A stretch of DNA of 64,000 nt from the NCBI GenBank assembly GCA_006384855.1, contig VCJN01002233.1, forward strand, positions 1 through 64,000. Reading direction: 5' to 3'. The translations under genes were made by a program, and so were the position numbers. This document shows, one piece after another, positions 21,517 to 40,109 of this stretch (within the stretch, counting starts at the first letter, position 1; each line of letters opens with the position of its first letter). Source of the DNA: Tetraselmis striata (taxonomy: Eukaryota; Chlorophyta; Chlorodendrophyceae; Chlorodendrales; Chlorodendraceae). Under the pieces are notes generated by a model. It saw only the letters and a list, made by a program, of their open reading frames with translations. It made no database searches and had not been told where the DNA came from.

Positions 21517-21555
21517 CAATATCGCCAAATTTTGTTCCAGAATTTGGCGATATTG
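21517..21555. promoter_or_regulatory. Perfect 15-bp inverted repeat between mdeA and mdeB
   Basis: CAATATCGCCAAATT (21517-21531) and its exact complement (21541-21555) flank a 9-nt spacer. The repeat lies in the 192-bp gap between mdeA and mdeB. On the coding strand no U-run follows, which argues against a simple terminator. The TTTGGC/GCCAAA core resembles the repeats upstream of mdeR, so it may be an operator for the Lrp-type regulator in front of mdeB. Confidence 0.55.
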
Positions 21556-21590
21556 CAAAGCATTTCCCGAAATTGCCTCGGTCTGGCGGA

Positions 21591-22796: not shown

Positions 22797-22883
22797 GGGT
22801 CAGATCCTCACCGCACAAGAGATGGTCCCGCCGACCGGCGGGCTTTCCTGTCGCTACGGTAGGGCTTGCCGGCTGCGCATTTC

Positions 22884-22930
22884 TGGCGAATTATGCCACT
22901 TGAAGATCATATTTTGGCAGATCCTGCCAA
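22884..22930. promoter_or_regulatory. Candidate MdeR operators upstream of mdeR and mdeA
   Basis: Two dyads lie in the 148-bp divergent gap: TGGC-N7-GCCA (22884-22898) and the perfect TTGGCAG-ATC-CTGCCAA (22914-22930). Lrp/AsnC regulators bind such short imperfect palindromes, often in arrays. The second dyad ends 14 nt before the mdeR start codon, fitting autoregulation. Confidence 0.5.
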
Positions 22931-22944
22931 TTATTGGGGGTCTC

Positions 22945-23397
22945 ATGGACGAAACCGACCGCAAGATCATCCGCGCCCTGCAGCACAACGGGCGGCTGAG
23001 CAATCAGGACCTGTCGGAAAAGGTGAACCTGTCGCCCTCGCCCTGCCTGCGCCGCGTGCGCAATCTGGAACAGGCGGGCGTGATCTCCGGCTATGCCGCG
23101 ATCGTCGATCAGGAGGCTTACGGCCTGCCGGTCACCGTGTTTTTGCAGGTGCGTCTGGAGCGTCACGCCGAGGACAGCGTCGGGACCTTCGAGGCGGCGG
23201 TGGCGCGCATCGACGAGATCATGGACTGCTACCTGATGGCAGGCGACCGGGACTATCTCCTCAAGGTCGTCGTCGCCTCTCTTGCCGACTACGAGGATTT
23301 CATCCGCCGGCGCATCCACAAGATCCCCGGCATCGCCTCGCTGGACTCAAGCTTCGCCTTCGGCGTCGTCAAGCGCAGCCAGGTGCTTCCGGGCTAG
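22945..23397 (+). CDS. mdeR: Lrp/AsnC-family regulator MdeR
   Basis: This 150-residue Lrp-type protein has an N-terminal helix-turn-helix (MDETDRKIIRALQHNGRLSN onward, with LSPSPCLRRVRNLEQAGVI) and a C-terminal RAM/ligand domain (about 70-150). The ATG at 22945 follows GGGGG, and an upstream in-frame start lies inside the operator region. It is divergent from methionine gamma-lyase, as in the P. putida mdeR-mdeAB unit, so it probably senses methionine or a product and activates mdeA-mdeB. Confidence 0.88.
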   Translation: MDETDRKIIRALQHNGRLSNQDLSEKVNLSPSPCLRRVRNLEQAGVISGYAAIVDQEAYGLPVTVFLQVRLERHAEDSVGTFEAAVARIDEIMDCYLMAGDRDYLLKVVVASLADYEDFIRRRIHKIPGIASLDSSFAFGVVKRSQVLPG

Positions 23398-23789
23398 GTA
23401 TCTGTGGGCTTCGGATCGGCGCTCTTGGAATCAGGCAGGCCGAGATCCGCCCGCTGCCTGCGCGTGAGTTTCGCCGCGACCAGCTTGTGCGCCTCGATGA
23501 CATAGGCGCGGATATCGTCGTCGCTCAAGGCGTCATTGCTGCGGACCTGCACCCATTTCGCCCGCGCCAGATAGGGGGCGGGACCCACGCCGTCGCGCTC
23601 GCACAGCATCTGGTAGGCGAGGTCGGAGCATTTGAACGCGATGGCGTCCGCGCTTGCGGTGCCCCAGTTCGAGCAGATGGCGAAGATCTTGCCGCCGACC
23701 TTCCAGACCGAGGCGTCGCCCCATTGAACGACATGCGTCGTGCCGGGAAGCGCGCTGCAATGCGCGTCGAACTGCGCCCGTGTCATCAT
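23394..23789 (-). CDS. MmcQ/YjbR-family protein
   Basis: This 131-residue YjbR-fold (CyaY-like) protein starts MMTRAQFDAHCSALPGTT and has WGDASVWKVGGKIFAI and a C-terminal DDIRAYVIEAHKLVAAKL helix. AGGAGGG precedes the start at 23789. Family members are called DNA-binding by fold, but no function is established. It is convergent with mdeR, with a 4-nt overlap of the stops. Confidence 0.8.
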   Translation of the reverse strand: MMTRAQFDAHCSALPGTTHVVQWGDASVWKVGGKIFAICSNWGTASADAIAFKCSDLAYQMLCERDGVGPAPYLARAKWVQVRSNDALSDDDIRAYVIEAHKLVAAKLTRRQRADLGLPDSKSADPKPTDT

Positions 23790-24736: not shown

Positions 24737-25388
24737 ATGTCTATCAATCCTGCTGGCGGGACGATCATTGTCGACAACTACGATTCCTTCACCTTCAACG
24801 TGGCGCAGATGGTCGCGGAAGCGGCCGGGGAAGAGCCGGTGGTTCTTCCCAATTCGGTTCCCTGGCGCGAGATCCGCAAGATACCGCATCGCCGGATCAT
24901 CCTGTCGCCGGACCGGGCACGCCGCAGCGCGCGGCCGATGTCGGGTCCTCGATGGATGTCCTGCGGTATGCGGAATGTCCCGTGCTTGGCATTTGCCTGG
25001 GGCATCAATGCCTTGTCGCGCATTTCGGCGGTGATGTCGGGCGGGGCGCCCGAACCCTTTCACGGGCGCATCAGCCGCATTCACTGCCGGCCAGACCCCC
25101 TGTTCGCGGGCTTACCGGCCGCCTTCGACGTGACGCGCTATCATTCGCTGATCGCCCGTCCGCCGCTGCCCGCGTGCCTGGAAAGCATTGCCGAAACCCG
25201 CGAGGGGCTGATCATGGCGGTGCGCCATCGCAGCCGGGCCGCTGCGGGGGGTGCAGTTTCATCCAGAATCGATCTGCTCCGAACATGGCGCCGCGCTTTT
25301 GGCGAATTTTGTCGCGCCTGCCGGTGCCCGTCCGGCCGCGCGGATGGCGCGGGTTGCGCCCTCGCATCTCGAGCCGGAGGGGGTCTGA
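24737..25388 (+). CDS. pabA: Aminodeoxychorismate synthase glutamine amidotransferase subunit, frame interrupted as sequenced
   Basis: A class I glutamine amidotransferase of the PabA/TrpG type is recognisable across all three frames: an N-terminal IIVDNYDSFTFNVAQ block, the oxyanion PGPGTP region, the nucleophile elbow GICLGHQC with catalytic Cys, and FHPESI with the catalytic His and Glu. It supplies ammonia to PabB. The frame breaks three times, near 24912 (one base short), 25040 (one extra) and 25234 (one extra), each in a G or C run. The stop at 25388 lies 1 nt before the PabB start. It is the first gene of a six-gene operon. Sequencing error is suspected, but real decay is not excluded. 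Confidence 0.75.
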
Positions 25389-25389
25389 G

Positions 25390-27395
25390 GTGGCTGACGT
25401 GATCGATCCGCCCGAGACCGCCGACACGCACAGTGGCGCATTCGAGGTCGTTTGGCGCAGCCAGGCCCTGTCCGTCTCGGCGGAGGCCGTGTTCGTGCAT
25501 CTCTTCGGCGCGGCGCGCGAGGCCTTCTGGCTCGATAGCAGCCTCCTGGTGCCGGGGCTGTCGCGGTTTTCCTTCATGGGCGATGCCTCCGGTCCGCATG
25601 TCTGTTCCGTGATCTTTCGCGACGGCGGCCAGTGCGGCGAGATCCGGACCGGGGGCAACGGCGCGCCCCGGCCGCTCGCGACGTCTGTGTTCGACTACCT
25701 GGACGGGGTTCACAGGACGCCCGCCCTTGATCCGCCGCCCGGTCTCGACTGCCCCTTTGTCGGCGGGCATGTCGGCTTTTCGGTTATGAACTCAAGCGCC
25801 TGACCTGCGGTGTGGCCGCGCATGAGGCGCCGACGCCGGACGCCGCCTTCCTGTTCGCCGACCGCCTGCTGGCGTTCGATCACCGCGACGGCACCGTGCA
25901 TGCCATCGCCCTGGCCTGTCACGGCGATCCGGCGGATTGCCGCGCCGCGCAGCGATGGGTGGATGAGACGATTGACGCGCTCGGGAAGGTTCGCGAGCCG
26001 GCGCCGTCCGCAGCAAGACCGGCGAGACAGGCGCCGCAGTTCCGCCTGCGCCATGATCGTGCCGCCTATCTGGCGCGGATCGAGGAATGCCTTGAGGAAA
26101 TCGCCGCCGGCGAAAGCTACGAGATCTGCCTCACCAACACCATCGAGGCGGAGGTGGATCTCGATCCGCTCGATCTCTACCGCATCCTGCGCCGCCGCAA
26201 CCCCGCGCCCTATTCCGCCTTCCTGCGCTTCGGCGATCTCGCCATTGCCAGTTCCTCGCCTGAGCGCTTCCTGCGCATCGATCCGGACGGAACCGTGGAG
26301 ACCAAGCCGATCAAGGGCACGGAACGGCGCGACCCCGATCCGACCCGCGACGCGGCGATTGCCGAAAGCCTGCGGCTTGACGAGAAAAGCCGTTCGGAAA
26401 ACCTGATGATCGTCGATCTGATGCGCAACGATCTCGGCCGGGTGTGCGAGACCGGTTCCGTGCATGTGCCGAGCCTGATGCATGTGGAAAGCTACAAGAC
26501 GGTGCATCAGCTCGTCTCCGTCGTACGCGGTCGGCTTCGCGCCGACGAAAGCCCGGTGAGCTGCATCGCCTCCTGTTTCCCCGGCGGCTCGATGACCGGC
26601 GCGCCCAAGGTGCGCACGCTGGAGATCATCGACCGGCTGGAGGGCGCGGCGCGCGGCGTCTATTCCGGCGCCATCGGCTTTCTGTCGCTGAGCGGCGCGG
26701 TCGACCTCAACATCGTCATCCGCACCGTCGTCTGCACGCCGGGCCATGTGTCCATCGGCTGCGGCGGGGCGATCGTCTATCTCTCCGACCCGCAGGCCGA
26801 GTTCGACGAGATCCTGCTGAAGGCGCGCGCGCCGATGGCCGCCGTTGCCGAGGCGGCGGGCGCTGCGACCGAAAGCGCCCCGCAGGTTGCGAATGCCGGT
26901 CCCACGCCTCTGGACCAAACCGTCACCGGGGCAAGGGTGCGCCGGCCGCGTAAGGACGAGGCCGGTGCCGTGGCCGCAGCCGTGGAGGCGCTGCTGCGCG
27001 AACTTGGCGGGCCGGGGCCGCAGTTCCGCGCCGGGGCGACACGCGCCGTCTGCGAAGGCTTTGCCGAGGACGAGAGCCTCGGCTTCATCCGCATCGCGGA
27101 AACGGAGGGCGGCGCCATTGCCGGCGTTGCGCTCGTCTCCATCGTCCGGGCCGCGCGCACCTCGGGGGATTATGCCGTGCTGCAGGAGCTCTGGGTCGAC
27201 GCGGGCGCGCGCGGCGGCGGTGTCGGCGCGGCGCTGCTTGCGGCGGTCGATGCGGAAGCGCGACGGCGGAGCCTGCCGCTGGTGGAAGTGTCCCTGCCGA
27301 AGCCCGGCCATCCTCAGGCGGAGCGATTGCAGGCGTTCTATGCCCGCGCCGGATATGCCCCGGCCGGCCAGCGCATGCGGCGGAGCCTTGCATGA
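25390..27395 (+). CDS. pabB: Aminodeoxychorismate synthase PabB fused to a C-terminal GNAT acetyltransferase, frame interrupted as sequenced
   Basis: The long N-terminal part is a chorismate-binding enzyme with ETKPIKGTERR, SENLMIVDLMRNDLGR, CFPGGSMTGAPK and YSGAIGFLSL. PIKGT (lysine, where anthranilate synthase has PIAGT) marks aminodeoxychorismate synthase, which makes 4-amino-4-deoxychorismate with PabA. After a linker, the last 150 residues are a GNAT acetyltransferase (ELWVDAGARGGGVGAALL acetyl-CoA loop), in one frame with PabB. The frame breaks once near 25776, where a T run is one base short; GTG at 25390 is the start used. The fusion with an acetyltransferase is unusual and suggests acetylation of the new amine. 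It overlaps the next gene by 4 nt. Confidence 0.78.
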
Positions 27396-28378
27396 CGCGG
27401 CCCGGCCTCCTGATCTTCGACGTGGCGCATCGCGCCGAACCGCGCGCCGCTATCCGCACAGCACGCGGCACGCTCAGACCGTCCAATGAGGTGGCCGAGC
27501 GCACCGCGCGCATTCGTTCCGGGATCCTGCGGGCGGCCGGGGCTCGGGCGCGCGGCGCGGAGATCCCGCAGCGCACGCCGCGCATGCTGCGCAGCCTCTT
27601 GCCGCTGGCGCATGACCCGGCCTATCTGGCGTTTCTCGAACATGGACCGCATCCGGCCGCCCCCGCGATCACGCCGCAGGGCCAGGCTTTCGCGGCGCCC
27701 GGCGTCGAGCAGGACACGCCGGTGGCAGCCGATTCCGCAGCCCGCGCCCTGACTTCCGCAACGGCGGCCGTTGCCGCTGCCGCCGCGCTCGGACGCGGGG
27801 AGGCGGCTCATGTCTATGCGCTGTGCCGTCCGCCCGGGCATCACGCCGGGCGGCGGTTCTTCGGCGGCTATTGTTTTCTCAACAATGCGGCGCTCGCGGC
27901 GCTGGCGCTGCGTCGCCAGACGCGGGCGCGGGTCGCGGTGATCGACATCGACTATCACGCGGGAAACGGCACCACGGATTGTCTCGCCGCCCATCCAGAC
28001 ATCGCGGTGTTCAGTTGCCATGCCCCGGGCGAGGTCGCCTTTCCGCATCAGCCGGATCTGGCGCCGGCCCTTCCCGCACATGTGTTTCATGCCTTTGACG
28101 CGCCGCCGGATGCGCAAGCCTATCTGGCGGTGGTGTCCCGTCTCGTGGAGCAGGCCGTGGCAACCGGTGCCGGGATGCTGGTGCTGTCGCTCGGCTACGA
28201 CGTGATCGACGGCGATCCGCATGGCGGCTGGCGCCTGTCGCCGGATGTCTTCGCCGGGGTGGGCGAGATCCTTCGCCAAAGCGGGCTGCCGGTCTGCGTG
28301 GTGCAGGAGGGCGGCTACCTGCTCTCCGCGCTGGGAGGACTGTGCCGCGCATTTCACCAAGGGTCTGATCGGCCTTGA
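27392..28378 (+). CDS. HDAC/acetylpolyamine-amidohydrolase family deacetylase
   Basis: This 328-residue class II histone-deacetylase-like hydrolase has tandem His150-His151 in RPPGHHAG, FGGYCFLNN, zinc ligands Asp187 and His189 in DIDYHAGNGT, the third ligand Asp270 in SLGYDVIDGDP, and the transition-state Tyr in QEGGY. All catalytic residues are intact. Bacterial members remove acetyl groups from polyamines, small amines or protein lysines. Translationally coupled to the PabB-GNAT gene, it is well placed to remove an acetyl group put on by the GNAT domain, though acetoin-type or polyamine roles cannot be excluded. Confidence 0.85.
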   Translation: MTRPGLLIFDVAHRAEPRAAIRTARGTLRPSNEVAERTARIRSGILRAAGARARGAEIPQRTPRMLRSLLPLAHDPAYLAFLEHGPHPAAPAITPQGQAFAAPGVEQDTPVAADSAARALTSATAAVAAAAALGRGEAAHVYALCRPPGHHAGRRFFGGYCFLNNAALAALALRRQTRARVAVIDIDYHAGNGTTDCLAAHPDIAVFSCHAPGEVAFPHQPDLAPALPAHVFHAFDAPPDAQAYLAVVSRLVEQAVATGAGMLVLSLGYDVIDGDPHGGWRLSPDVFAGVGEILRQSGLPVCVVQEGGYLLSALGGLCRAFHQGSDRP

Positions 28379-28416
28379 GGCTGATACAGCGCCTGACACA
28401 AGGGAGAGCGGAACGG

Positions 28417-28707
28417 ATGACGGCCGACACGCAAAGCCTGCTGGCGCCCTATCGTGACCAGCTGAACGCGATCGACGAGAAGCTGGTCACGCTGGTGGCC
28501 GAACGCCTGACGATATGCGCGCAGGTGGCGCACACCAAGCGCCGCCATGGCATCGCCATGATGCAGCCCGACCGGGTGGAGGAGGTGAAGAGCCGCTGTG
28601 CGAAACTGGGCGCGGACCAGGGGCTCGATCCGGAGTTCGTTCGCGCGCTCTACGGGCTGATCATCGGCGAGGCCTGCGCGCTGGAAGACCGGATCATCGA
28701 GCGATGA
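28417..28707 (+). CDS. AroQ-type chorismate mutase, probably 4-amino-4-deoxychorismate mutase
   Basis: This 96-residue all-helical AroQ/type II chorismate mutase has the expected active-site arginines and lysine (Arg13, Arg30, Lys41 in HTKRRHG, and PDRVEEVKSR). It has no fused dehydratase or dehydrogenase. Free-standing relatives act as chorismate mutase, isochorismate-pyruvate lyase (PchB) or 4-amino-4-deoxychorismate mutase (PapB/CmlD). Its place directly after an aminodeoxychorismate synthase favours the last. GGGAGA precedes the ATG. Its stop overlaps the next start (ATGA). Confidence 0.82.
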   Translation: MTADTQSLLAPYRDQLNAIDEKLVTLVAERLTICAQVAHTKRRHGIAMMQPDRVEEVKSRCAKLGADQGLDPEFVRALYGLIIGEACALEDRIIER

Positions 28708-29276
28708 TCCGCTTTCACACGCTCGGCCCGGCGGGAAGCTGCCACGAGCATGCGCTGAAGCGTTATCTCGCCTTTCAGGGGGTCGAGGAGGCTGACATCG
28801 CGCTGTGCGACGATCTGGTCGCGGCCGCCGCCCGCGCGGTGGAAGAGGGCAATTCCTATGTGCTTCAGTGCAGCGCGCATCTGAACGTGCATCAGGTGAC
28901 CGAGCGGTTTCTCGGCCGGCTCCATGTGGTCGACACCTTCATCCTGCCGACCCAGGAAATGGCGCTGGTCAAGCGCCGCGACGTCGACGTGCCACAAACG
29001 CTGGGCGTGCCGGAACCCGCGCTCGGCTATGTGAACGAGGCCGACTGGCGCGAGATCACCTTCGAGACCACCAAACCGGTCGTGGAGCAGGGCCTGCTCG
29101 CCGGGCGCTATGAGGCCGGCGTCGCCTACACCCGCTCCGCGCGCGACCATCCAGAGGCGCTCGAGATCATGCGGGTGATCGGCGAGGTGGTCACCACCTG
29201 GATCGTCTATGGACCGAAACCGCGCTATCGCGGGAATCTGATGGGAAATCCCTATCCAGAGTTGCATGCGGGGTGA
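28704..29276 (+). CDS. Prephenate dehydratase-fold protein, possible aminodeoxyprephenate decarboxylase
   Basis: This 190-residue single-domain protein starts IRFHTLGPAGSCHEHAL, which matches the YLGPxGTxSxxA motif of prephenate dehydratase. It lacks the essential TRF motif and the C-terminal ACT regulatory domain of true dehydratases. Short PDT-fold enzymes without TRF (BacA type) are prephenate decarboxylases that keep the ring non-aromatic. After an aminodeoxychorismate mutase, the natural substrate would be 4-amino-4-deoxyprephenate. This is inference: the reaction (decarboxylation, dehydration or deamination) is not proven by sequence. Confidence 0.6.
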   Translation: MIRFHTLGPAGSCHEHALKRYLAFQGVEEADIALCDDLVAAAARAVEEGNSYVLQCSAHLNVHQVTERFLGRLHVVDTFILPTQEMALVKRRDVDVPQTLGVPEPALGYVNEADWREITFETTKPVVEQGLLAGRYEAGVAYTRSARDHPEALEIMRVIGEVVTTWIVYGPKPRYRGNLMGNPYPELHAG

Positions 29277-29329
29277 GGGTGTGATCGTCTGGCCGGCGAC
29301 CCTTGCGACACCTGTGCAGACGGAGCGAC

Positions 29330-30517
29330 ATGAGCGGTAGCGGATCGAAGACCCTGCGCGGCGCCTCGCACCAGACGGTGCTGCTGGCGGCGCTGGGCGT
29401 GGGCGCGGTGGCCATCGGCATGGACACCTTCGTGGTGATCGGCGTGCTCAACGAGATCGCCGAAAGCCTGGAGATTCCGGCAACGCGCGCCGGGCAGCTC
29501 GTGTCGGTCTATGCGCTGTCCTATGCCGTCTTCGCGCCGCTGAGCGCCTGGCTGTTGCGCGGGCTCGACCGGCGCCGGGTGATCCTGCTGGCCATCGGCT
29601 TTTTTCTCGCCGGCAATCTGGCCTGCGGTCTGGCGACGGGCTTTTACCAGATCGTCGCGGGCCGGATCGTGTCGGCGCTGGGGGCTGCGATCTTCACGCC
29701 GGCGGCGACCGCGTTTGCCTCCGATCTGGTGCCGCCGCATCGCAAGGGCGCCGCCCTTGCGGTGATCTTCGGCGGCATGACCGTCGCCCAGGCGGCCGGC
29801 ATCCCGCTTGCGACCCTGATCGGCCAGATGTTCGACTGGCGCTATGCGTTTTATTTCGTCGTCGTGCTCGGCCTCGTCGCGCTGGCGATCCTGGCGCCGC
29901 TGATGGGGCGTTTGCCCGTCGGCGCGGCTGCCCCGGCGGCTGCGAGCGCCGCGCGCGCGCTGACCCCGGCAACCGCCGGGCTCTTGCTGGTGACCTTCCT
30001 GATCGTGCTGTCGGAATTCGTCGTCTACACCTATGTGAGCGTGATCCTCGCCAGAACCACCTACGCCGGGGCGCCGATCCTGCCGGCGGTGCTGCTCGCC
30101 TATGGCATCGGCGCGCTCGCCGGCAATTTCGCCACCGGGATCCTGACCGACCGGCTCGGGCCGCTGCAGGTGCTCGTCGGAGCGGTGGCGGCGCAGACGG
30201 CGCTGCTCGTCGCGCTCGTCGTCTGGCGCGATGCGGCGCTCCTTACGGTCGCCGTCGGCTTCGTCTGGGGCATCGCCAGCTACATGTATCTGGTGCCGAT
30301 CCAGCACCGCCTGCTCAGCCATGCCGGCGGGGGCGGCACGCTGATCCTGTCGCTGAACAGCTCGCTGATCTATATCGGCATTTCCGCCGGCGCCTGGGCC
30401 GGCGGCGCGGTTCTGGACCGCGCCGGCATTGCGCCGCTGGCGCTGGTGGCAGGCACGCTCGGCGCCGTGGCGCTGGTTGCGGCGGTCGTCTTCATGCGAC
30501 GCCCGGTTCCGGACTGA
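29330..30517 (+). CDS. MFS transporter, probable efflux pump of the biosynthetic cluster
   Basis: This 395-residue, about 12-helix major facilitator of the DHA1 drug-efflux type has a TM1-2 segment ending DTFVVIGVLNEIAESLEI and the loop LRGLDRRRVILLAIG (motif A-like). It is the last gene of the plus operon, 53 nt after the PDT-fold gene, and ends 9 nt from the convergent PKS gene. It probably exports the product or confers self-resistance; the substrate is unknown. Confidence 0.82.
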   Translation: MSGSGSKTLRGASHQTVLLAALGVGAVAIGMDTFVVIGVLNEIAESLEIPATRAGQLVSVYALSYAVFAPLSAWLLRGLDRRRVILLAIGFFLAGNLACGLATGFYQIVAGRIVSALGAAIFTPAATAFASDLVPPHRKGAALAVIFGGMTVAQAAGIPLATLIGQMFDWRYAFYFVVVLGLVALAILAPLMGRLPVGAAAPAAASAARALTPATAGLLLVTFLIVLSEFVVYTYVSVILARTTYAGAPILPAVLLAYGIGALAGNFATGILTDRLGPLQVLVGAVAAQTALLVALVVWRDAALLTVAVGFVWGIASYMYLVPIQHRLLSHAGGGGTLILSLNSSLIYIGISAGAWAGGAVLDRAGIAPLALVAGTLGAVALVAAVVFMRRPVPD

Positions 30518-30526
30518 AACAGCCGG

Positions 30527-33500
30527 CTAAGTTTCCCTGGTCGTCGCCTGCGCCTCGCACAGGCGCGTCATGTCGGCCACCGTCAGCGCCTTGAAGGCAT
30601 CGGCGGCTGGAACCGAAATTCCGCTGCGCTGTCGGATCAGGTCGATCACGTCGAGCATCATCAGCGATTCTCCGCCAAGCTCGAAGAAATTGTCCTGGGG
30701 ACCGACCGTGTCCGCGCCGAGCACGTCCTTGAAGCAGGCGGCGACCATGGCGGCCAGACCGTCGGCGGCCGGCTCCTCCGCCGCAGCCGGCGCGCGCACC
30801 GCTGGACGGTCCTGCGGCGCGGCCGCGTCTTGCGGCGAAGGCGGGGCAGGGCGCGACGACGCGGTGTCGGAGAGCCCCGGCCTGTCGGCGAGCGGCACCG
30901 TCGAAATCGCGTGCTCGCCGGCGCCGGCAGCGGCTGCAAGGGCAAGCACGGCCGCGCCTTCCGCCGGTTCGATCGCCCAGTCGGCGCCGCCCGCGCCGAT
31001 GGTCTTCTCGCGCGACGGCACGTGCCATGTGTCGTAGTTGACGACAATCCACGCGGCTTTCGAACGGCCCGCGAGCCTTTCGCGCAGCGCCACGGCATCC
31101 ATGTGGCGGTGGCCGGCGGCATGCGCGCCGTAGCTCAACCCGCCGACGAAACACGACAGGCTGGAACACAGAAGCACCTTGCCGACCGGCGTTTCCGCCA
31201 CCGCATCGGCGAGCGCGCGCATGCCCGCGACATGCGGCACCAGGAGGTCGGCGGCAAGGGCCGGCGGCGTGTCGCGGATGAACTTCAGGTGATCGGTGTC
31301 AACCACGCCGGCGGCATGGATCACCGTAGCGATGGCGCTGCTCTCCGCCTGCGCCTTGCGAAACAGTTCCGCCACCGCGCCGCCATCGGCGAGATCGACG
31401 GCGTGCAGCGAGACATGCGCGCCGCTGTTCAAGAGCGCCGACAGCGCCTCTGCCCCGGTGTCGCGGACCCTGCCCGAGCGCGAGGCAAGATAAAGCCGCG
31501 CATCGGGTGCGGACCGGGCGATCTCGCCGGCAAGCGCCAGCCCGACATGGCCGGTTCCCCCGAAGATCACATGCGCACCGCCGCCGCCCCACAAACGCGC
31601 GCCGGTCGCGGAATTGGCGTCCGCGTCTGTCGGCCTTGCCGGCGCCAGTTCCGGCACGAAGCGCGCCCGGCCGCGCCAGGCGATCTCGCGCTCGTCACCG
31701 GGATCGTGAAGTTCGTCGAGGATCCAGCCGATGGCGCGCGCGCCCGTGTCCGGGGTTTCGTCGATGGATAGGGGCAGGTCGAGCGCGCGGGCATCGAGCG
31801 TCCGGTGCTCCTGCGCGATCACCCGCGCCAACGCGGCAAGCGGCGCGGCCTCGGCCGCGATGGTCGTGTCGCCCGGCAGATGCTGCGCGCCGCAGGTGAC
31901 GAACCACAGGCGGCTTTTGTCCCGTCGCCCGCCGAGCGCTCTTGCAAGCGCCAGCGGCCAGAGCACGCTGGCTGAAAGGTTCGCGTCGGGAGTAGCAGTG
32001 TCGCACCACAGATAGAGCAGGTCGCGCCACGCCACCCCGTCGCGCTCCAGCGCGTCGAAGAGCAGCTTGTGGGAGGCGGTATCCGAGGGATCGATGGCAA
32101 AGCGGTCCTCTCCGTGGCGTTCATAGCCGGTGCCGGGTCGGACCTCGATCACGCGGCCCGCGCCCGTTTGGCGCAGGGCGGCAGTCAGCGCCTGTTGCCA
32201 TTGCGGGTCGCGGAGGAAGACGATCCGCGCCGGTGACGTGGTGTCTTCGTCCGGACGAGCCGCGTCATGGGGCGCCGGCAGGCGGGTCGCGCGCCAGCGG
32301 CGCTGGTGAAACCAGTCGGCGATGTCGGCCTGCTTGCGGGGTCTCGTCCGCGCCTCGACGGAAGCTGCGGGAGACGCGGACGCGACCGGCTTAGATCCGC
32401 GACCGGAGGCAAGATCGGCAAGCCCGTAGGTCTTGCGCTCATAGGCATAGCCGGGAAGCGGTATCAGTCGGGCGTCCGACGCCTGCGGAAACGCATCGAG
32501 GCGAACCGGCGCGCCCGCCTGCCAGAGGCGTGAGGCCGCGGTGAGCAGATGGGACACTGCGCCCGGTCGATGGGCCGGGCGCGGTCCTGCGGTCGGAAGG
32601 CTGGAGACGATCAGCGGCAGGGTCGCCGGGGTGGCCTCGATGCGCAGGAGGTCGGAGAGGAACCCGTCCGGCCCGATCTCGATCACCGTTCGGCCCTGCG
32701 ACAGACACTGCGCGGCGAAACTCGTGACCGGGGGCCGGTGCTGCGCGCGCTCGGGCTCGGCCTCCGCGCCGCTTGCTGCCGGACGCGGGGAGGTTTGCGC
32801 GATGCCGCCGGTTTGGCTCGTTGCAAGGCACAGCGCGGCACCCAGCGGGTCCAGGACCTCGCCCCGGGCCGCAGGCGCTGTATCGGCGGGGTCGGCAACG
32901 ACAGCCGACCAGGTCGTGGCAAAGGGGTGCTCTTTCGTCAGTTCGGTCGCCGCCCGTGCAAGGCGCGCGGCGCGACTGGCGCCGCCTTCCACGCTGGCCG
33001 CGAAGAGGTGGCGGGCGAACAGCCGTCCCGGCCCGGTGCCGACACAGGCGCCGGGAAGAACCCCAAGATCGCGCCACAGGCTGACCAGCGCATGGGCGAG
33101 CACGAAGGCATCGGCCGGTTCCGGGGCGATCCGCGCGGGCAGGGCGGCGCGGGCTTCGGCGCAGGCGTCGCGAAACGCCGGAAACGCGCTGAACAGGGTA
33201 AGCTCTTCCGGGGCCTCCTCGCCGGCACGGCCGGAAAACACGAACAGCGGTGCGATCCAGGCGCCGGACGACGTTTGCGGCAGGGCAAGCGCGGAAAACC
33301 GCCGGGCCGCCTCCGCGGCATCGGCTGCAACGACGGCCGCGCGATGGGAATGGGTGCCGCGGCCCTCGCGCAGCGTGCGTGAGGCGTCGCGCATGTCGAG
33401 CGCGGGATCGGCGGCGAAGGCCGACCCCAGGGCCTCGACCATCCGCTTCAGCGCGGTCGCGGTCTTGGCGGAGACCGGCAGGACGGCGGGGGCGCTCGCC

Positions 33501-34798
33501 GGCGGTCGCTCGGGCCGTCGCGGCGCTTCCTCCAGAATGGCATGGGCGTTGGTGCCGCCGAAGCCGAGCGCGCTGACGCCGCCACGGCGGGGAGCAGCCG
33601 GGCTCTTCCAGTCTTCAAGCGCCGTTGCAATGCGAAAGGGGGTGTTGGCGAAGTCGATGGCCGGATTGGGCGTTTCGAACCCGGGGGCGGGCGGGATCTT
33701 GCGGTGGTGCATCATCAGCGCAAGCTTGATGGTGCTGGCGACGCCGGCGGCATGCACCGTGTGGCCGATGTTGGCCTTCAGCGAGCCGAGTGCCGCGATC
33801 CCGGTCGCCTGCGTCTTCAGCCGAAAGGCGCGGGTCAGAGCCTCGACCTCGATCGGATCGCCGAGAAGCGTGCCGGTGCCATGCGCCTCGATATAGGACA
33901 GGGTCTCGGGATGGACGTCGGCGAGCTCCTGCGCCAGCGCGATGGCCTCCGCCTGTCCGTCGATGCCGGGCGCGGTGTAGCTCATCTTCGACGCGCCGTC
34001 GTTGTTGATCGCGGAGCCGCGGATCACCGCCCAGATGTGGTCGCCGTCGGCCAGCGCGTCGTCCAGCCGCTTCAATGCGACCACGCCGACCCCGTCGCTG
34101 GAGACCATGCCGTCGGCGCGGGCGTCGAAGGGGCGGCAATGGCCGGACAGCGAGAAATGCAGTCCCTGCTGGGTGCGGTAGCCGAATTCCTCCGCCGTCG
34201 CGACGTTCACCCCGCCGGCAAGCGCCATGTCGCTGCTGCCGGACAGAAGGCTCTGGCAGGCCATGTGAATGCCGACGAGCGAGGAGGAGCACGCCGTTTG
34301 AACCGCCATGCTCTCGCCGCGCAGGTCAAGGCGGTAGGACACCCGGCTCGGCGCATATTCCGCGTAGTTGGAACTGTAGGCGAGGCTGCGTTCCGCCGGC
34401 GAGCGGACGATCTGCAAGAGCTGTTCGTGATAGCGGTTCTGGCTGCAGGAGGCATAGACGGAGATCGCGCCGTCGAAGCGCGCCGGATCGCAGCCCGCGT
34501 TCTCCAGCGCCGCATGGCTGGTTTCCAGGAACAGCCGGTGCTGCGGATTGAGATAGCAGGCTTCCCGCGTGGGAATGCCGAAGAAGGCCGCGTCGAACCC
34601 TTCCGGCTCGCTGACGAGGCCCCGCACCGGCTGGTAGCCGGGTTCCGCCCGTGCCGGATCGCGATAAAGCGTGTCGCGCCCCGCGCAGAGCATCTCCCAG
34701 AAGGACGCAAGGTCGTCGGCACCGGGAAAGCGGCAGGCCATGCCGACAATGGCGATGGAGGTTTCCGGCCAGCCGCCGGCGGTTGCATCATGTGTCAC
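30527..34798 (-). CDS. Type I polyketide synthase, KS-(inactive AT)-(inactive KR)-PCP
   Basis: This 1423-residue one-module PKS has a KS domain (about 14-430) with intact Cys170, His306 (EAHGTGT) and His346 (NIGHT). The AT region (about 515-790) lacks the GHSxG motif: the position reads GTGPG (587-591), so the serine is lost. The KR region (about 1070-1310) keeps the NADPH motif GGTGHVG and a Ser, but the catalytic Lys, Tyr and Asn are replaced (His at about 1226 and 1230 for Tyr and Asn). The C-terminal carrier has LGGESL with Ser1378. The gene overlaps the end of the NRPS gene by 11 nt. It must rely on acyl supply in trans, if it elongates at all. Confidence 0.88.
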   Translation of the reverse strand: MTHDATAGGWPETSIAIVGMACRFPGADDLASFWEMLCAGRDTLYRDPARAEPGYQPVRGLVSEPEGFDAAFFGIPTREACYLNPQHRLFLETSHAALENAGCDPARFDGAISVYASCSQNRYHEQLLQIVRSPAERSLAYSSNYAEYAPSRVSYRLDLRGESMAVQTACSSSLVGIHMACQSLLSGSSDMALAGGVNVATAEEFGYRTQQGLHFSLSGHCRPFDARADGMVSSDGVGVVALKRLDDALADGDHIWAVIRGSAINNDGASKMSYTAPGIDGQAEAIALAQELADVHPETLSYIEAHGTGTLLGDPIEVEALTRAFRLKTQATGIAALGSLKANIGHTVHAAGVASTIKLALMMHHRKIPPAPGFETPNPAIDFANTPFRIATALEDWKSPAAPRRGGVSALGFGGTNAHAILEEAPRRPERPPASAPAVLPVSAKTATALKRMVEALGSAFAADPALDMRDASRTLREGRGTHSHRAAVVAADAAEAARRFSALALPQTSSGAWIAPLFVFSGRAGEEAPEELTLFSAFPAFRDACAEARAALPARIAPEPADAFVLAHALVSLWRDLGVLPGACVGTGPGRLFARHLFAASVEGGASRAARLARAATELTKEHPFATTWSAVVADPADTAPAARGEVLDPLGAALCLATSQTGGIAQTSPRPAASGAEAEPERAQHRPPVTSFAAQCLSQGRTVIEIGPDGFLSDLLRIEATPATLPLIVSSLPTAGPRPAHRPGAVSHLLTAASRLWQAGAPVRLDAFPQASDARLIPLPGYAYERKTYGLADLASGRGSKPVASASPAASVEARTRPRKQADIADWFHQRRWRATRLPAPHDAARPDEDTTSPARIVFLRDPQWQQALTAALRQTGAGRVIEVRPGTGYERHGEDRFAIDPSDTASHKLLFDALERDGVAWRDLLYLWCDTATPDANLSASVLWPLALARALGGRRDKSRLWFVTCGAQHLPGDTTIAAEAAPLAALARVIAQEHRTLDARALDLPLSIDETPDTGARAIGWILDELHDPGDEREIAWRGRARFVPELAPARPTDADANSATGARLWGGGGAHVIFGGTGHVGLALAGEIARSAPDARLYLASRSGRVRDTGAEALSALLNSGAHVSLHAVDLADGGAVAELFRKAQAESSAIATVIHAAGVVDTDHLKFIRDTPPALAADLLVPHVAGMRALADAVAETPVGKVLLCSSLSCFVGGLSYGAHAAGHRHMDAVALRERLAGRSKAAWIVVNYDTWHVPSREKTIGAGGADWAIEPAEGAAVLALAAAAGAGEHAISTVPLADRPGLSDTASSRPAPPSPQDAAAPQDRPAVRAPAAAEEPAADGLAAMVAACFKDVLGADTVGPQDNFFELGGESLMMLDVIDLIRQRSGISVPAADAFKALTVADMTRLCEAQATTRET

Positions 34799-36710
34799 GG
34801 CGGGTCTCCGGCAGGCGGACGGGACGGGTGCGGGCGCGCAGGCGGCGGTCGACGCGCCGACGCAAAGCCGTGTCCCCGCCAGCGCTCGCGTCCGAACGCT
34901 CCGCGGCGGATGTTCCGTTGCTTTGCCGGCTTTGGAGGTGCGCGGCCAGATCCATCAGGCGCGGGTGTTCGAAGAGGGCGGTGACGGGGATCGACGTCTG
35001 CACGTCGCTCTCCAGCGCCTTTTGCACCCTGGTGAGCAGCAGCGACGTGCCGCCGAGCTCGAAGAATGTCTGCTCCCGGCTGCACTCTGTAAGGCCGAGG
35101 CAATCGCACCAGATCCGCGCAATCCGCGCCTCCATGCCGGGGCGGGGCGCATCGCGCGTGCCGCCGGCGGGCAGGCGGGCGGCCGTATCGAGGTCCGGCA
35201 GGGCGGCGCGGTCCAGCTTGCCGTTGGGGGTCAGCGGTAGGGCGGGAAGCGCGACAAACAGGGAGGGGATCATGTAGTCCGGCAGGCTTTGCGCCAGAAA
35301 CCGCCGCAGCTCCGCCGGCGTGGGGGTGGATCCCTCCTCGGCAACGAGATAGGCGCACACTCCGTTCTCGCCGGACGGCAGCTGTTTGAGCGCCGCGGCC
35401 GCCTGCCGCACCATCGGGTGGCGCTCCAGCGCGGCATTGATTTCCGGCAGCTCGACGCGGTGGCCGCGCACCTTCACCTGGTCGTCGCGGCGGCCGAGGA
35501 CATCATAAAGGCCCTGCTCCGTGCGCCGCGCCAGATCGCCGGTCGCATAGACCTGCCGCGCGGGATCGTGCGGATGCGGGCGAAACGCCGCCCCGGTCAG
35601 CTCCGGGCGGTTGTGATAGCCGGGGGTAAGGCGCGTGCCGGCGATATGCAGCACGCCGGTCTCGCCATCGGCAACGGGCCGACCGTCGTCATCGAGGATG
35701 AAGAGCTCGTCGCCGCCGATCGGGTGGCCGACGGGAATGCGCAGCGCATCCGCTGCAAGATCGCGCGGCACGCGGTAGCAACAGGTGAAGTCGCTGTTTT
35801 CGGTCGGGCCGTAGCCGTTGATCACCGTGATGTCGGGAACCGCATCATAGAGCAGGCGCACATGGTGCGGCGACAGCGGTTCCCCGCCGAGCACCAGCTG
35901 GCGGACGCCGGCGAAAATGCGGGGGTCCTCGGCGGCGATGCCGTTGAACACCGACGGGGTCAGCCACAGCGTGGTGATGCGGTGATCGGCGATCGCCGCG
36001 CCGAGCGTCGCGGCCGTCGGGATGCGCTCGCGGTAGAAGACGAGCTCCGCGCCGTTCGCGAGCGCGCCCCAGATGTCGAAGACCGAGGCGTCGAAGGCAA
36101 TCGGCGCGGTCTGCAGGAAGCGGTCGCCGGGCTTGGCCGCGTAATAGTCATTGCCGAAAAGCAGCCCGTGCACGCCGCGATGCAGGATCGGAACCCCCTT
36201 CGGCCGGCCGGTCGAGCCGGAGGTGTAGATCATGTAGACCGGATCATCCGCGCCAATCGTCCGCTCGGGAGCGGATGCCGCCGGTGCGGATGTTGCGTCG
36301 GCGGGCGAGAGGCTCAGCACCGGCAGGCCGGGGGCGTCGAGAGGGCGGCTGCCGTCGGTGAGGACCGCGGCGCACTGGCTGTCGTCGAGCATGAAGCGGA
36401 TGCGCTCGGCCGGATAGGCGAGGTCGACCGGCACATAGACCGCGCCCGCCTTCATCGCGGCCAGCATGGCGCAGACGGCGACGGCGGAGCGTTCCAGCAC
36501 CAGCGCCACACGGTCGCCGGGCCGCACGCCGAGATCGACAAGCGCGGTGGCGGTCGCATTGGCCCAGGCGTCGAGCTCGCGGTAGCTCAGCGAAAGCGCA
36601 CCGTCACGGATCGCCGGGGCATCGGGAGCGATCCGCACATGGTCCTGGACATGCGCATGCAGCGGGCGGGGCCGGGTCGTGTCGCGTGGCAGGCTCTCAT
36701 GGTGGTCCAT
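34788..36710 (-). CDS. NRPS module A-PCP (adenylation domain plus carrier)
   Basis: This 640-residue protein has an adenylation domain (about 15-505; YTSGSTGRPKG at 162-172, GYGPTE at 299-304, TGD at 390-392, NGK at 496-498) and a carrier domain with LGGTSL (Ser556). There is no condensation or thioesterase domain. A by-eye ten-residue code is D-A-F-W-V-G-G-D-F-K, close to valine-type codes except for the Asp; treat it as tentative. GGAGGA precedes the ATG at 36710. It loads an amino acid for the adjacent PKS. About 80 basic C-terminal residues after the carrier may be a docking tail. Confidence 0.88.
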   Translation of the reverse strand: MDHHESLPRDTTRPRPLHAHVQDHVRIAPDAPAIRDGALSLSYRELDAWANATATALVDLGVRPGDRVALVLERSAVAVCAMLAAMKAGAVYVPVDLAYPAERIRFMLDDSQCAAVLTDGSRPLDAPGLPVLSLSPADATSAPAASAPERTIGADDPVYMIYTSGSTGRPKGVPILHRGVHGLLFGNDYYAAKPGDRFLQTAPIAFDASVFDIWGALANGAELVFYRERIPTAATLGAAIADHRITTLWLTPSVFNGIAAEDPRIFAGVRQLVLGGEPLSPHHVRLLYDAVPDITVINGYGPTENSDFTCCYRVPRDLAADALRIPVGHPIGGDELFILDDDGRPVADGETGVLHIAGTRLTPGYHNRPELTGAAFRPHPHDPARQVYATGDLARRTEQGLYDVLGRRDDQVKVRGHRVELPEINAALERHPMVRQAAAALKQLPSGENGVCAYLVAEEGSTPTPAELRRFLAQSLPDYMIPSLFVALPALPLTPNGKLDRAALPDLDTAARLPAGGTRDAPRPGMEARIARIWCDCLGLTECSREQTFFELGGTSLLLTRVQKALESDVQTSIPVTALFEHPRLMDLAAHLQSRQSNGTSAAERSDASAGGDTALRRRVDRRLRARTRPVRLPETRRDT

Positions 36711-36748
36711 CGGATCGTCCTCCGGTTGGGATGCGCTTGCGCCCGGCT

Positions 36749-37606
36749 TCAGGCGACGCCGGCTGCAAGCGCCCGTGCCGGCGCCGTGCCGGAACGCTCG
36801 CGCGGGGCGGCCCGCTCGGCGAGCAGCGTGCTGCACACCAGGCGAAGGTCGCTGGCGAGCCGCTGCAGGAAGGCGTCGCGGGCGGATTCGAGGAAAAAGA
36901 AATGCCCGCCGGGAAAGGCGGTGAAGCGGAACGCCGCGCGCGTATGCGCGCCCCATGCCCGCACCGCCTCGACGGGTTCGGTCTCGTCGGTCTCGCCCGC
37001 ATAGGCAAAGATCGGGATGTCGAGCGGGGCGCCGTCCTCAAGCGCGTAGGTCTCGCAGATTTCGAGATCCGCCCGGAGCGGCGGCAGGATCCGCTGCAGC
37101 AGGGCCGGGTCGTCGAGCAGGTCCGGCGGGGTTCCGCCCCAGGCGCGCAACTGGCGCACCAGCGCCGCATCGTCGAGGGCATGCAGGCCATTGTGCCGCT
37201 TTGCCGCCAGATGCGGCGCGGCGTGACCGCAGACGAAGAGCGCGACCGGTCCGACCCCGCCCTCGCGCGCCAGGCGCCGCGCCAGTTCGAAGGCGATGAG
37301 CGCGCCCATGCTGTGGCCGAAGAGCGCCATCGGCCGGGGCGGCCGCGATGCGATGCGGTCGACGAGTTCGTCGAGCAGGCACGACAGCCCTTTCGCCGGC
37401 GGATCGTCCGCGCGCAGGCCGCGCCCGGGCAGTTCCAGCCCGGTGAGCGCGATGGCCGCCGGCAGGGCGGCGCCCCACGGGCGGAAGCTCTGCACGCTGC
37501 CGCCGGCGAAGGCCAGGCAATGCAGGTCGAGAAGCGTGTCGTCGCCCGCCGCGGCCTGAAACACCGTCGGCGGCAGCGGCGACGCCGGCGTGCGGCGCGC
37601 CGTCAT
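36749..37606 (-). CDS. Type II thioesterase of the PKS/NRPS cluster
   Basis: This 285-residue alpha/beta-hydrolase has the thioesterase elbow FGHSMGALIAFELA and a C-terminal catalytic His in GGHFFF; LPGRG is in the N-terminal region. Stand-alone type II thioesterases clear wrongly primed carriers or release short products; with no integrated TE in the PKS or NRPS, this may also be the releasing enzyme. It starts within the stop of the PLP enzyme (ATGA) and is followed 38 nt later by the NRPS. Confidence 0.87.
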   Translation of the reverse strand: MTARRTPASPLPPTVFQAAAGDDTLLDLHCLAFAGGSVQSFRPWGAALPAAIALTGLELPGRGLRADDPPAKGLSCLLDELVDRIASRPPRPMALFGHSMGALIAFELARRLAREGGVGPVALFVCGHAAPHLAAKRHNGLHALDDAALVRQLRAWGGTPPDLLDDPALLQRILPPLRADLEICETYALEDGAPLDIPIFAYAGETDETEPVEAVRAWGAHTRAAFRFTAFPGGHFFFLESARDAFLQRLASDLRLVCSTLLAERAAPRERSGTAPARALAAGVA

Positions 37607-38910
37607 GCGGACCTCACGTAGTGGTCGGTCTCTGCGATGAACCGCTCCAGATCCTCCACCGTGTTGTAATAATGGACGGAACAGCGGGCGACGGCTTCCA
37701 GGTTTCGCCGGTCCATGTCGAGGCGCACCAGGTCGCGGTCCGAGACGCCGATGTTGATTTTCCGCTGGCGCAGATGCGAGACGAGTGCGTAGGGCGAGCC
37801 CCGGTCGAGGTCGAAGGTCACGGTCCCGCATTGCCGCGAACCGGTGTCGCACAGGCGCACGCCCGGCAGGTCGGCGAGCATCTCGCGCAGCACCGCCGAC
37901 AGCGCGCCGATCGACGCCTCGATGGCATCGAGCCCCCAGTCCAGGGCCTCGTCGACGGCCGCGCCGAAGGCAAGCTTCGAGGCAACGCATTTGTCCCAGG
38001 TCTCGAACCGTTCGGCCTCGGCATAGATGCGGTATTCGTCGCTGCCGCTCCAGAAGCCGCTGCGCATGTCGAGAATCCGCGGCTCCACTGCCGCTGCCAG
38101 GCCCGGTTGCGCGCGTCGCACATAGAGAATGCCGACCCCGCGCGGGCCGCGCAGGAACTTGCGGCTCGTCGCCGTCAGCATGTCGCAGCCGAGCGCATCG
38201 ACGTTGACGTCCATTTGCCCGACCGTCTGGCAGGCATCCACCGCAACCAGCGCATTGGGGGCGAGCGCGCCGGAGCCGCGCGCCTCGCGCACGATCCGCG
38301 ACAAGGTCTCGACCGGAGAGATCGCGCCGTTGTTGGTCGCGACATGGGTGAGCGACACCAGCCGGATGCGCCGGCCGTGACGGTCGATCAGCTTGCGCAG
38401 CGCGTCGGCGTCCGCCGTGCCGTCCGGGCCCGGCGCGATGACCTCGATCTCGATGCCACAGCGTCGCCGGGCCTGAAGCATCGACATGAAGTTGCTTGCA
38501 TATTCCCCCTCGGTCGTCACCACGACATCGCCGGGTGCCAGGTCGAGACTGGCAAAGAACAGCGCCCAGGCCCGCGAGGCGTTTTCCATGATCGCGATTT
38601 CGTCCGGCGCGCAGCCGAGAAGGGCGGCGGTGGAGCGATAGACGGCGAACATGCGCGCCTGCGCCCGGTCGGCCGCCTCATAGCCGCCGACGACCGCTTC
38701 AAGCCGCAGGTGCTCGATTGCGGTGTTCAGCACCCGCTCCGACATCAGGGCGGCGCCGGCGTTGTTGAGATGGGTGATGTTGGCAAGGCCGGGCGTCCTT
38801 GCCCGCGCCAGATCCACATCTATCTTTCGCGACGGGCCGAGTGGCGGCGGGGTAACGGGACGCGCGTCGAGCACACGGCCCGCCGGCGTCCTGGTCGATT
38901 GAGCGTCCAT
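37603..38910 (-). CDS. Class V aminotransferase-fold PLP enzyme (isopenicillin N epimerase/cysteine desulfurase-like)
   Basis: This 435-residue fold-type I PLP enzyme has an aldimine Lys in ATSRKFLRGPRGVG, a VDACQTVGQMDVNV loop with the PLP-contacting Asp, and HLNNAGAAL near the N-terminus as in EgtE/CefD-like enzymes. There is no clear desulfurase active-site Cys loop. It may transaminate the cluster's 2-oxoacid, epimerise an amino acid, or act as a C-S/C-N lyase; sequence alone cannot choose. It is the first gene of the minus operon, and the ATG at 38910 is used. Confidence 0.78.
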   Translation of the reverse strand: MDAQSTRTPAGRVLDARPVTPPPLGPSRKIDVDLARARTPGLANITHLNNAGAALMSERVLNTAIEHLRLEAVVGGYEAADRAQARMFAVYRSTAALLGCAPDEIAIMENASRAWALFFASLDLAPGDVVVTTEGEYASNFMSMLQARRRCGIEIEVIAPGPDGTADADALRKLIDRHGRRIRLVSLTHVATNNGAISPVETLSRIVREARGSGALAPNALVAVDACQTVGQMDVNVDALGCDMLTATSRKFLRGPRGVGILYVRRAQPGLAAAVEPRILDMRSGFWSGSDEYRIYAEAERFETWDKCVASKLAFGAAVDEALDWGLDAIEASIGALSAVLREMLADLPGVRLCDTGSRQCGTVTFDLDRGSPYALVSHLRQRKINIGVSDRDLVRLDMDRRNLEAVARCSVHYYNTVEDLERFIAETDHYVRSA

Positions 38911-39253
38911 TTGCAAAAGACAAACCTCGGCGTCCTGGGTGTCACTTGTTAGAGTGCCTCGAAGTCAAAAAACGTATTATTATTTATGATGATAATATTA
39001 GTTGGTTGCAGATAAGCATATTTTAAAACCAAAGATTGTCAACACGGATCGCCTGAATTTTCCGCGCCGCAGCACGGGGCGCCCGGGAGGCTGGCTCCGG
39101 CCGCTTGAAGCTGCCAGTCCCGGCCGTGCCGCCGGCCAAAGGCGCCGATCGATCTGGACGGCTCAGTCCTGGCCCGCTAGGGTCCGGCAATGCGCATCAG
39201 GGCGTGTGATTTCATTTTTTTCACCTTTAGATTATTCCGTTCCGGAGACCTGA
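38911..39253. other. AT-rich intergenic region between the biosynthetic operon and eamA
   Basis: This 343-bp divergent gap has a strongly AT-rich stretch (38960-39045) in otherwise GC-rich DNA, including an imperfect palindrome around 38972-38996. I see no gene in it. It must contain the promoter of the minus-strand biosynthetic operon and probably that of eamA, but no -35/-10 pair stands out. Confidence 0.6.
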
Positions 39254-40109
39254 ATGAGGCCTGCAACTCCCCTTGTCGGCATTGGCCTGATGGCCGCCGC
39301 ATCGCTCGCCGTTCCCTTTGTCGACGGGATTGCCAAACACCTGAGCGCCGAGCACTCGCCGTTCCTGGTGGCCTGGTCGCGCTATTTCGGCTCCGCGCTG
39401 ATCGTCTCCGTGCTGTTTTTCGGCCAGGGCGGAAACCTGCGCGATCTGGGGCAAGGGGGCAATCGCCAACACGGTTCGCACCGTGTTCATCGTCGGCGCA
39501 ATGACGACATTCCTCTTTGCAATCGTTGAGATTCCGCTTGCCACCGGCCTCGGCGGCTATTTCGTCGGGCCGATCATCGCATCGGTGCTTTCGGTGATCT
39601 TTCTCCGTGAACGCCTGACGCCGAACCGTCTGATCGGCGGCGGCCTCGGCGTGGTGGGGGCGTTGCTGATCATCAAGCCGGGGGTCGAGGTCGAGTTTGG
39701 CTCCCTGCTGGCGGTGATCAGCGGGTTGCTCTTCGGCGGCTATCTGATCGCGACGCGGGCGGCGGCGACCACCGCCCCGCCTATGGTCGCGCTCTATTTC
39801 CAGGTCTGTGTCGGGACGCTTCTGCTCACACCCTTTGCCATTGCCACGTGGTCCTGGTTCTCCGCATCCGAGTTGCTGCTGGTTGCGGCGATGGGTCTTG
39901 TCTCCACTGCCTGCCATTTCATGGTGATCGCCGCTTTCCGCCACGCGGAGGCCTCGGTGATCTCCCCGCTGGCCTATCTGGAACTGATCAGCGCCTTCTT
40001 CATCGGATACTTCGCCTTTTCGGAAATTCCCGGAAGCGTCGATGTAATCGGCATTTTCTGCATTCTTGCCTCTGGGCTGGTGATTTCCCTCTATTCGCGA
40101 AAACCGTGA
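39254..40109 (+). CDS. EamA/DMT-family transporter, frame interrupted as sequenced
   Basis: This drug/metabolite transporter has two EamA repeats, about ten TM helices in all. The N-terminal part begins MRPATPLVGIGLMAAASLAVPFVDGIAKHL, and the rest continues in another frame with TGLGGYFVGPIIASVL and a second EamA repeat ending SLYSRKP. One extra base in a run of G near 39455 separates them. Members export amino acids or metabolites. Since the same kind of indel recurs in this window, sequencing error is as likely as decay. Confidence 0.78.

Follow-up and report, generated by a model that had tools for sequence, protein, structure and literature searches.

What is made by a bacterial gene cluster in which genes for a chorismate-derived amine face a short line of non-ribosomal peptide synthetase (NRPS) and polyketide synthase (PKS) genes? 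The question is raised by a stretch of 64,000 nucleotides (positions 1 to 64,000 of contig VCJN01002233.1, assembly GCA_006384855.1, deposited as Tetraselmis striata), called the window below, in which such a cluster spans positions 24737-38916; the host of the cluster is an alphaproteobacterium. An earlier note on this DNA had described two convergent operons, in agreement with reading frames that end at 30517 on the plus strand and at 30527 on the minus strand, and had proposed that they join a shikimate-derived amine to a short polyketide or amino acid unit. The best reading is still that a shikimate-derived amine is produced next to a short NRPS/PKS line, although the amine is likelier to be non-aromatic than to be of the p-aminobenzoate (PABA) or p-aminophenylalanine (PAPA) type. 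We assign a probability of roughly 65% to the overall proposal, in which the first operon would lead to a non-aromatic, amine-bearing C9 unit and the second would extend and release an amino acid.

Layout and Gene Content

The plus-strand operon runs from pabA over pabB, which ends in a GNAT domain, to the genes for an HDAC-like amidohydrolase, an AroQ mutase, a protein with a prephenate dehydratase (PDT) fold and a major facilitator superfamily (MFS) exporter. It faces minus-strand genes for a class V pyridoxal phosphate (PLP) enzyme, a thioesterase (TE), an adenylation-peptidyl carrier protein (A-PCP) and a ketosynthase (KS)-containing protein, which also holds acyltransferase (AT), ketoreductase (KR) and acyl carrier protein (ACP) regions:

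24737..25389, plus strand: pabA-type glutamine amidotransferase (PF00117); the ortholog in the related genome G001 is open (216 residues), the window frame is broken
25390..27395, plus strand: pabB-type 4-amino-4-deoxychorismate (ADC) synthase with C-terminal GNAT domain (about 26920-27395); PF00425, TIGR00553 and PF13508/PF00583 on the open part, one frame break in the window
27392..28378, plus strand: HDAC-like zinc deacetylase (PF00850, 4.4e-48); final residues off-frame relative to G001
28375..28707, plus strand: AroQ-type mutase for chorismate or aminodeoxychorismate (PF01817; TIGR01803 above cut-off)
28704..29276, plus strand: stand-alone PDT-fold protein of 190 residues, BacA-like, a proposed non-aromatising decarboxylase (structure model, PDB fold matches)
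29330..30517, plus strand: MFS exporter; ATG start matching the 395-residue frames of G001 and G372
30527..34798, minus strand: KS-containing protein; KS about 33509-34798, degenerate AT about 32471-33508, KR about 31061-31579, ACP about 30560-30745
34788..36716, minus strand: A-PCP NRPS protein; frame open up to 36956, start picked by eye
36749..37600, minus strand: stand-alone TE (PF00975, 9.1e-43); start after the 283-residue frame of G372
37603..38916, minus strand: class V PLP-dependent enzyme (PF00266; best NCBIfam match EgtE, TIGR04343, 154.5 against a cut-off of 400)

The activities named in the earlier note (PabA/glutamine amidotransferase, PabB, AroQ, MFS, class V PLP, TE, A-PCP and KS) were found by family matches where it had put them. 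Its list, right as far as it goes, omitted the GNAT domain that ends PabB and the HDAC-like amidohydrolase, and passed over frame breaks, pabA and pabB not being open in the window. PabB scores 362.6 bits on TIGR00553 (cut-off 328.4), and the PIKGT motif, the lysine of which marks component I of ADC synthase, is present in all six PabB proteins inspected, the G001 copy among them. The mutase scores 79.6 on TIGR01803 (cut-off 73.35), a family that we take to include aminodeoxychorismate mutases. Four metal and active-site motif patterns were all found in three of four HDAC-like copies (those of G001, Plectonema radiosum and Lonsdalea).

A BacA-Like Protein

The protein encoded at 28704..29276 has no Pfam or NCBIfam match and no convincing sequence match in the PDB. 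Its structure model is confident (pLDDT 94.5) and, as the earlier note had called it, has the fold of a PDT: the five best PDB fold matches are prephenate dehydratases (3mwb, E 3.6e-11; TM-score 0.67 by query length), and other periplasmic-binding-type folds rank next among a total of 654 fold matches at E <= 0.001. Relatives were collected by running a profile of nine aligned PDT-like proteins against named genomes; of the 130 obtained, the best 80 were retained. From these 80 loci come 48 rows of A3, the alignment used for the model and for the tree described below, and the window protein is its one further row. Prephenate dehydratases carry the catalytic motif TRF, which was found in four true PDTs of G001 and G372. 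The window protein and 47 of the 49 rows of A3 lack these letters, which in the other two rows stand elsewhere, as judged by eye. According to the passages drawn on, BacA, a protein of 204 residues, decarboxylates prephenate without aromatisation (PMC9147277), and a prephenate decarboxylase has been proposed for the suomilide pathway (PMC10157211).

A Recurring Six-Gene Cassette

Without the MFS gene, the first operon is a recurring cassette of pabA, pabB, GNAT, HDAC-like, AroQ mutase and stand-alone PDT-fold genes. When these were sought in the 80 loci by tblastn with the proteins of the window and of G001, all six core genes were found in ten loci and at least four in 13, while pabA and pabB were each matched in 20. 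The ten full loci span Pseudomonadota, Actinomycetota and Cyanobacteriota and comprise a relative of the window (L040), three Lonsdalea loci (L041, L042 and L044), a Solirubrobacterales bin (L048), Saccharospirillum (L054) and four cyanobacteria (L057, L058, L060 and L061). The layout of the window is also seen in plasmid p187_1 of Bradyrhizobium sp. 187, outside these 80 loci, with the six genes and the MFS gene in window order, a PabB-GNAT fusion and a PDT identity of 66%, and Lonsdalea quercina (L042), with the same order and fusion and a PDT identity of 59%; in the latter the HDAC-like and mutase genes share one reading frame, and in the former the HDAC-like and PDT genes are annotated merely as hypothetical proteins. 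The earlier note had not recognised the architecture, which holds for the two operons together, a combination that the fetched loci show only within this genus, but not for the first operon, which can be placed as this cassette.

In the PDT tree (49 rows) the window clusters with Lonsdalea (100/100). Sixteen rows were labelled core-bearing, six of them with incomplete gene sets, several at contig ends; these labels require three changes, compared with 13.7 under shuffling. In the neighbourhoods of stand-alone PDT-like genes that were inspected, no cassette was found, and some of these genes adjoin TRAP or amino acid ABC transporters, so that the PDT-like family is wider than the cassette.

Several loci add variants. 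In Lonsdalea britannica (L041, 6665-8665) pabB-GNAT is spread over three frames, by decay or sequencing error, and lies in a single frame in L042. The Bradyrhizobium plasmid (L170, 25356-27529) holds, near insertion sequences, further fragmentary matches to pabB and pabA that seem to be a degraded second copy. In Saccharospirillum salsuginis (L054, 6063-13672) the core is followed by an ATP-grasp ligase (by eye) and a class IV aminotransferase match, which suggests that dipeptides are made there by a ligase instead of an NRPS. Three Variovorax loci (L066, L068 and L071) have a PDT-like gene adjoining amino acid transporter genes (by eye), with pabA/pabB matches and no match to GNAT, HDAC or the cassette mutase; in two Solirubrobacterales loci (L045, 10907-11296; L052, 9497-9883) a stand-alone PDT-like gene of 42-46% identity adjoins a small cupin gene (by eye). 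The surroundings of a PDT-like gene on a plasmid of Pseudoalteromonas xiamenensis (L171, NZ_CP099918.1, 1388-16103) include three ATP-grasp genes and genes for a branched-chain transaminase, an MFS protein, an RND pump and a DAHP synthase/chorismate mutase, and lack any match to pabA or pabB; this is perhaps another dihydro-aromatic peptide cluster.

Among the full loci, L060 belongs to Plectonema radiosum NIES-515. Its contig carries NRPS genes, a pabAB fusion, and PDT, chorismate mutase and HDAC genes; two more genes were identified by eye, one for a BacB-like cupin and one for a class IV aminotransferase, the end of which is the GNAT match. The cupin matches five and the aminotransferase six of the 80 loci. 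The radiosumin gene cluster has reportedly been cloned in a 2023 study (Org. Biomol. Chem. 21, 4893; doi 10.1039/D3OB00385J). Radiosumin is a dipeptide of 4-aminocyclohexenylidene-alanines; its description from this species is given by a title in a reference list, and radiosumin C, a trypsin inhibitor, is described in the passage drawn on as two 4-amino-2-cyclohexen-1-ylidene alanines with two acetyl caps (PMC10531186). From species identity, gene content and these passages, we infer that L060 would be the radiosumin cluster.

Proposed Route to a Non-Aromatic Amine

PabA and PabB would form ADC, which the AroQ enzyme would convert to 4-amino-4-deoxyprephenate, and the BacA-like protein would decarboxylate the latter with retention of the 4-amino group to give 4-amino-dihydrophenylpyruvate. 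This would be the most economical chemistry, since PabB and the mutase pass their cut-offs, the PDT fold is without TRF and BacA offers a precedent. An aminotransferase, which may be the class V PLP enzyme or belong to housekeeping metabolism, would yield an amino acid of the 4-amino-dihydrophenylalanine type, the double bonds of which, there being no cupin isomerase, may stay in the ring, unlike in radiosumin. The GNAT domain would acetylate the 4-amine and the HDAC-like enzyme would remove the acetyl group, which may thus serve as a protecting group or as a self-protection switch, and the MFS protein would export the product and thereby protect the cell.

PabA/PabB and a TIGR01803 mutase would equally suit a pathway as for chloramphenicol or pristinamycin, in which the PDT-fold protein performs an oxidative or eliminating step and the first operon yields aromatic p-aminophenylalanine or p-aminophenylpyruvate, and the best NCBIfam match of the exporter is the chloramphenicol-efflux family Cmx/CmrA, under cut-off. 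However, the presence of a BacA-like protein makes a non-aromatic amine likelier, as does the lack of both a prephenate-dehydrogenase-type protein (PapC) and an ADC lyase among the ten proteins scanned; moreover, the BacA-like protein recurs with the cassette, and P. radiosum, which has the same core, yielded a non-aromatic product as far as the cited passage describes it. We therefore regard the aromatic outcome as distinctly improbable. Since no dehydrogenase or lyase family was found in that scan, a PAPA- or PABA-type reading was not preferred.

Conservation, Insertion and Loss Within the Genus

At E 1e-3 the PDT protein is matched in four of 289 genomes of the class, 19 of 87 of the family and six of 398 of the phylum, with an identity of at least 90% only in G001, G366 and G372. 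As to the conserved synteny that the earlier note advised looking for, both operons are kept at the same place in G001 and G372, and in G366 as far as the contig reaches, close to where the KS gene starts. Between G001 and G372 the ratio of non-synonymous to synonymous substitution rates (dN/dS) is 0.09-0.26 for every cluster gene, and this constraint, together with conservation of the cluster in relatives, is more than chance. Ten other congeners for which the site was fetched have no match to any cluster protein; in G365, G367 and G375 the site is empty, the cluster-flanking genes being 110-140 bases apart, in G371 about 1.7 kb separates them, and in six congeners the right-hand flank lies outside the fetched 14 kb. 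The cluster thus appears to have been inserted in this lineage and to be under purifying selection. Next to it (window 39177-40109) lies a gene that by eye encodes an EamA/DMT-like transporter; this gene is kept next to the scar in G374 described below and is unmatched at the empty sites of G365, G367 and G375, so that it may have arrived with the insertion.

In G374 the site holds fragments of the PDT, PLP, TE/A-PCP and KS/ACP genes surrounding an intact MFS gene. The MFS frame is free of stops, with dN/dS of 0.16 against the window and 0.17 against G372, and a search of 14 genomes of the genus at E 1e-60 finds the exporter in the three cluster carriers and in G374 and in no other. Since the pump was kept though synthesis was lost, it is suggested to protect against the product, which in turn suggests that the product is bioactive.

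The Second Operon

The second operon is not radiosumin-like. Its KS carries the usual active-site motifs (by eye), whereas the AT-like stretch has no AT family match and, at the place judged by eye to be that of the GHSxG serine motif, reads GTGPG in all four genomes compared. The AT-like stretch is 62% identical between the window and G372, as against 92% for the KS, and dN/dS rises from 0.12 in the KS to 0.28 in the AT-like part and 0.31 in the remainder of the protein. The KR keeps its dinucleotide motif and, in all four genomes, has a histidine aligned with the catalytic tyrosine of a solved KR; judged from these residues, it is probably unable to reduce. Two genes of the PPTase family PF01648 each are present in G001 and G372. 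The specificity letters of the A domain were read as D-A-F-W-V-G-G-D-F, by eye and at the motif positions of gramicidin synthetase, and are not decisive. For the class V PLP enzyme, presence alone says little: at E 1e-20, 95 of 240 genomes of the class have a match, with 39-49% identity in the closer ones, and a paralog of 43% identity exists in G001.

In the proposed assembly line the A-PCP would activate an amino acid, the KS module, having no working AT of its own, would extend it, and the TE would release the chain. A more specific version, in which an acetyl group on the 4-amine of ADC or aminodeoxyprephenate blocks expulsion of that amine and aromatisation during decarboxylation and is removed at the end, the unit is in this lineage loaded by the A-PCP, AT and KR are inactive and the β-ketone is aminated by the class V PLP enzyme to give a diamino acid scaffold, seems rather improbable; to our knowledge, a scaffold of this sort is familiar from no pathway.

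The operons could instead be functionally separate, the first exporting a free 4-amino-dihydro-aromatic amino or keto acid, which may also be what the Lonsdalea and Bradyrhizobium cassettes do, and the second making an unrelated short NRPS-PKS product. Lonsdalea and Bradyrhizobium have the six genes and the MFS gene without this KS, TE and PLP enzyme in the stretches fetched, and in the 80 loci the KS matches one (L040, the same locus in a relative) and the TE and PLP enzyme none, the L040 contig ending before the TE and PLP genes. Against this, G001 and G372 have the two operons side by side with every gene under constraint, and the scar in G374 holds fragments of both, and we consider separate functions unlikely.

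Broken pab Genes in the Window

The nearest genome, G001, shares 80% of the sampled 31-mers of the window. In the window, pabA and pabB show four single-base frame-breaking differences, within about 0.9 kb, from all three relatives aligned (G001, G366 and G372, with G366 read through L040, which has 98% PDT identity). pabA is open in G001 and the pabB-GNAT fusion is open in all three, with single unbroken matches for each of pabA, pabB and GNAT in G366 and G372. The window HDAC gene has one frame-breaking difference from G001 close to its 3' end. Either early decay or sequencing errors may account for the breaks.

One tentative explanation, for which we see somewhat less than an even chance, is that this strain carries a decaying, silent cluster in which the breaks are the onset of a loss as in G374. 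It draws on the crowding of the breaks in pabA/pabB and HDAC, as opposed to a gap-free comparison over 43685-63684, and on the precedent of the scar. On the other hand, by eye the breaks are single-base differences adjoining short one-base runs, as in sequencing or assembly errors, and the remaining cluster genes are open. Such differences also occur outside the cluster: two lie to its right in the same 20-kb comparison, and a few over 3733-23694, where several gaps change the frame, many within poorly aligned stretches.

Weight and Meaning of the Proposal

Several points weigh against the proposal of a non-aromatic C9 unit joined to an NRPS/PKS line. Whereas the identity of the genes, the recurrence of the cassette, the predicted fold, selection, insertion and decay are shown, every chemical step, the timing of acetylation and the substrate of the A-PCP are inferred, and the radiosumin link rests on species identity, gene content and passages of the literature. 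The scan of ten proteins gave neither a cupin nor a class IV aminotransferase family, and the cupin of P. radiosum was matched in none of six genomes (including G001, G366, G372 and G374), in a search without positive control. The letters of the window A domain are, by eye, unlike those of the A domains of L060, L061 and L062, and the A-PCP may therefore load an ordinary amino acid. A profile comparison failed to align the PDT-like family with true PDTs, to which it is linked only by fold, and the Bradyrhizobium HDAC-like copy fails one of the four motif patterns. Furthermore, the dN/dS of the exporter in G374 also covers the time preceding the loss, and since pabA and pabB are broken in the window, the strain may not make the compound unless the breaks are sequencing errors.

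The chorismate-to-amine cassette of a cyanobacterial species that yields a trypsin inhibitor thus recurs in three bacterial phyla, a Bradyrhizobium plasmid included, and provides a six-gene marker for mining genomes for hidden 4-amino-dihydro-aromatic natural products. It also raises the question of why an acetylase and a deacetylase occur as a pair.

Comparison With Known Systems

The PAPA sub-clusters of chloramphenicol and pristinamycin combine an ADC synthase and an AroQ mutase with a dehydrogenase to reach an aromatic product. The window shares the first two, whereas no counterpart of the dehydrogenase is among the ten proteins scanned. The stravidin/amiclenomycin (sta) cluster, compared by description only, likewise has chorismate-type enzymes, and an N-acetyl-amiclenomycin residue is reported, but in the passages drawn on it belongs to Streptomyces and has branched-chain amino acid enzymes as well (PMC13336041). 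With the bacilysin bac operon the window has in common a small aromatisation-avoiding decarboxylase, BacA, and an exporter; the bac pathway differs in starting from prephenate and in using BacB, a ligase and reductases, with no ADC synthase named in the passages drawn on (PMC9147277). The cassettes of Bradyrhizobium p187_1 and Lonsdalea are alike in pabA, pabB-GNAT, HDAC-like, mutase, PDT and MFS genes in identical order, yet have other NRPS genes nearby and, in the stretches fetched, no match to the window KS, TE or PLP enzyme. Finally, the radiosumin-type locus L060 shares with the window an ADC synthase, an AroQ mutase and a BacA-like protein together, as well as the GNAT and HDAC-like pair, both beside NRPS genes. 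In the window, however, the GNAT domain is on PabB instead of the aminotransferase, the A-domain letters differ (by eye), and the cluster has another NRPS, a KS module, a stand-alone TE, a class V PLP enzyme and an MFS exporter. Because aminotransferase, cupin and NRPS differ, the cluster is not classed as a radiosumin cluster; its first operon is a building-block cassette like that of P. radiosum.

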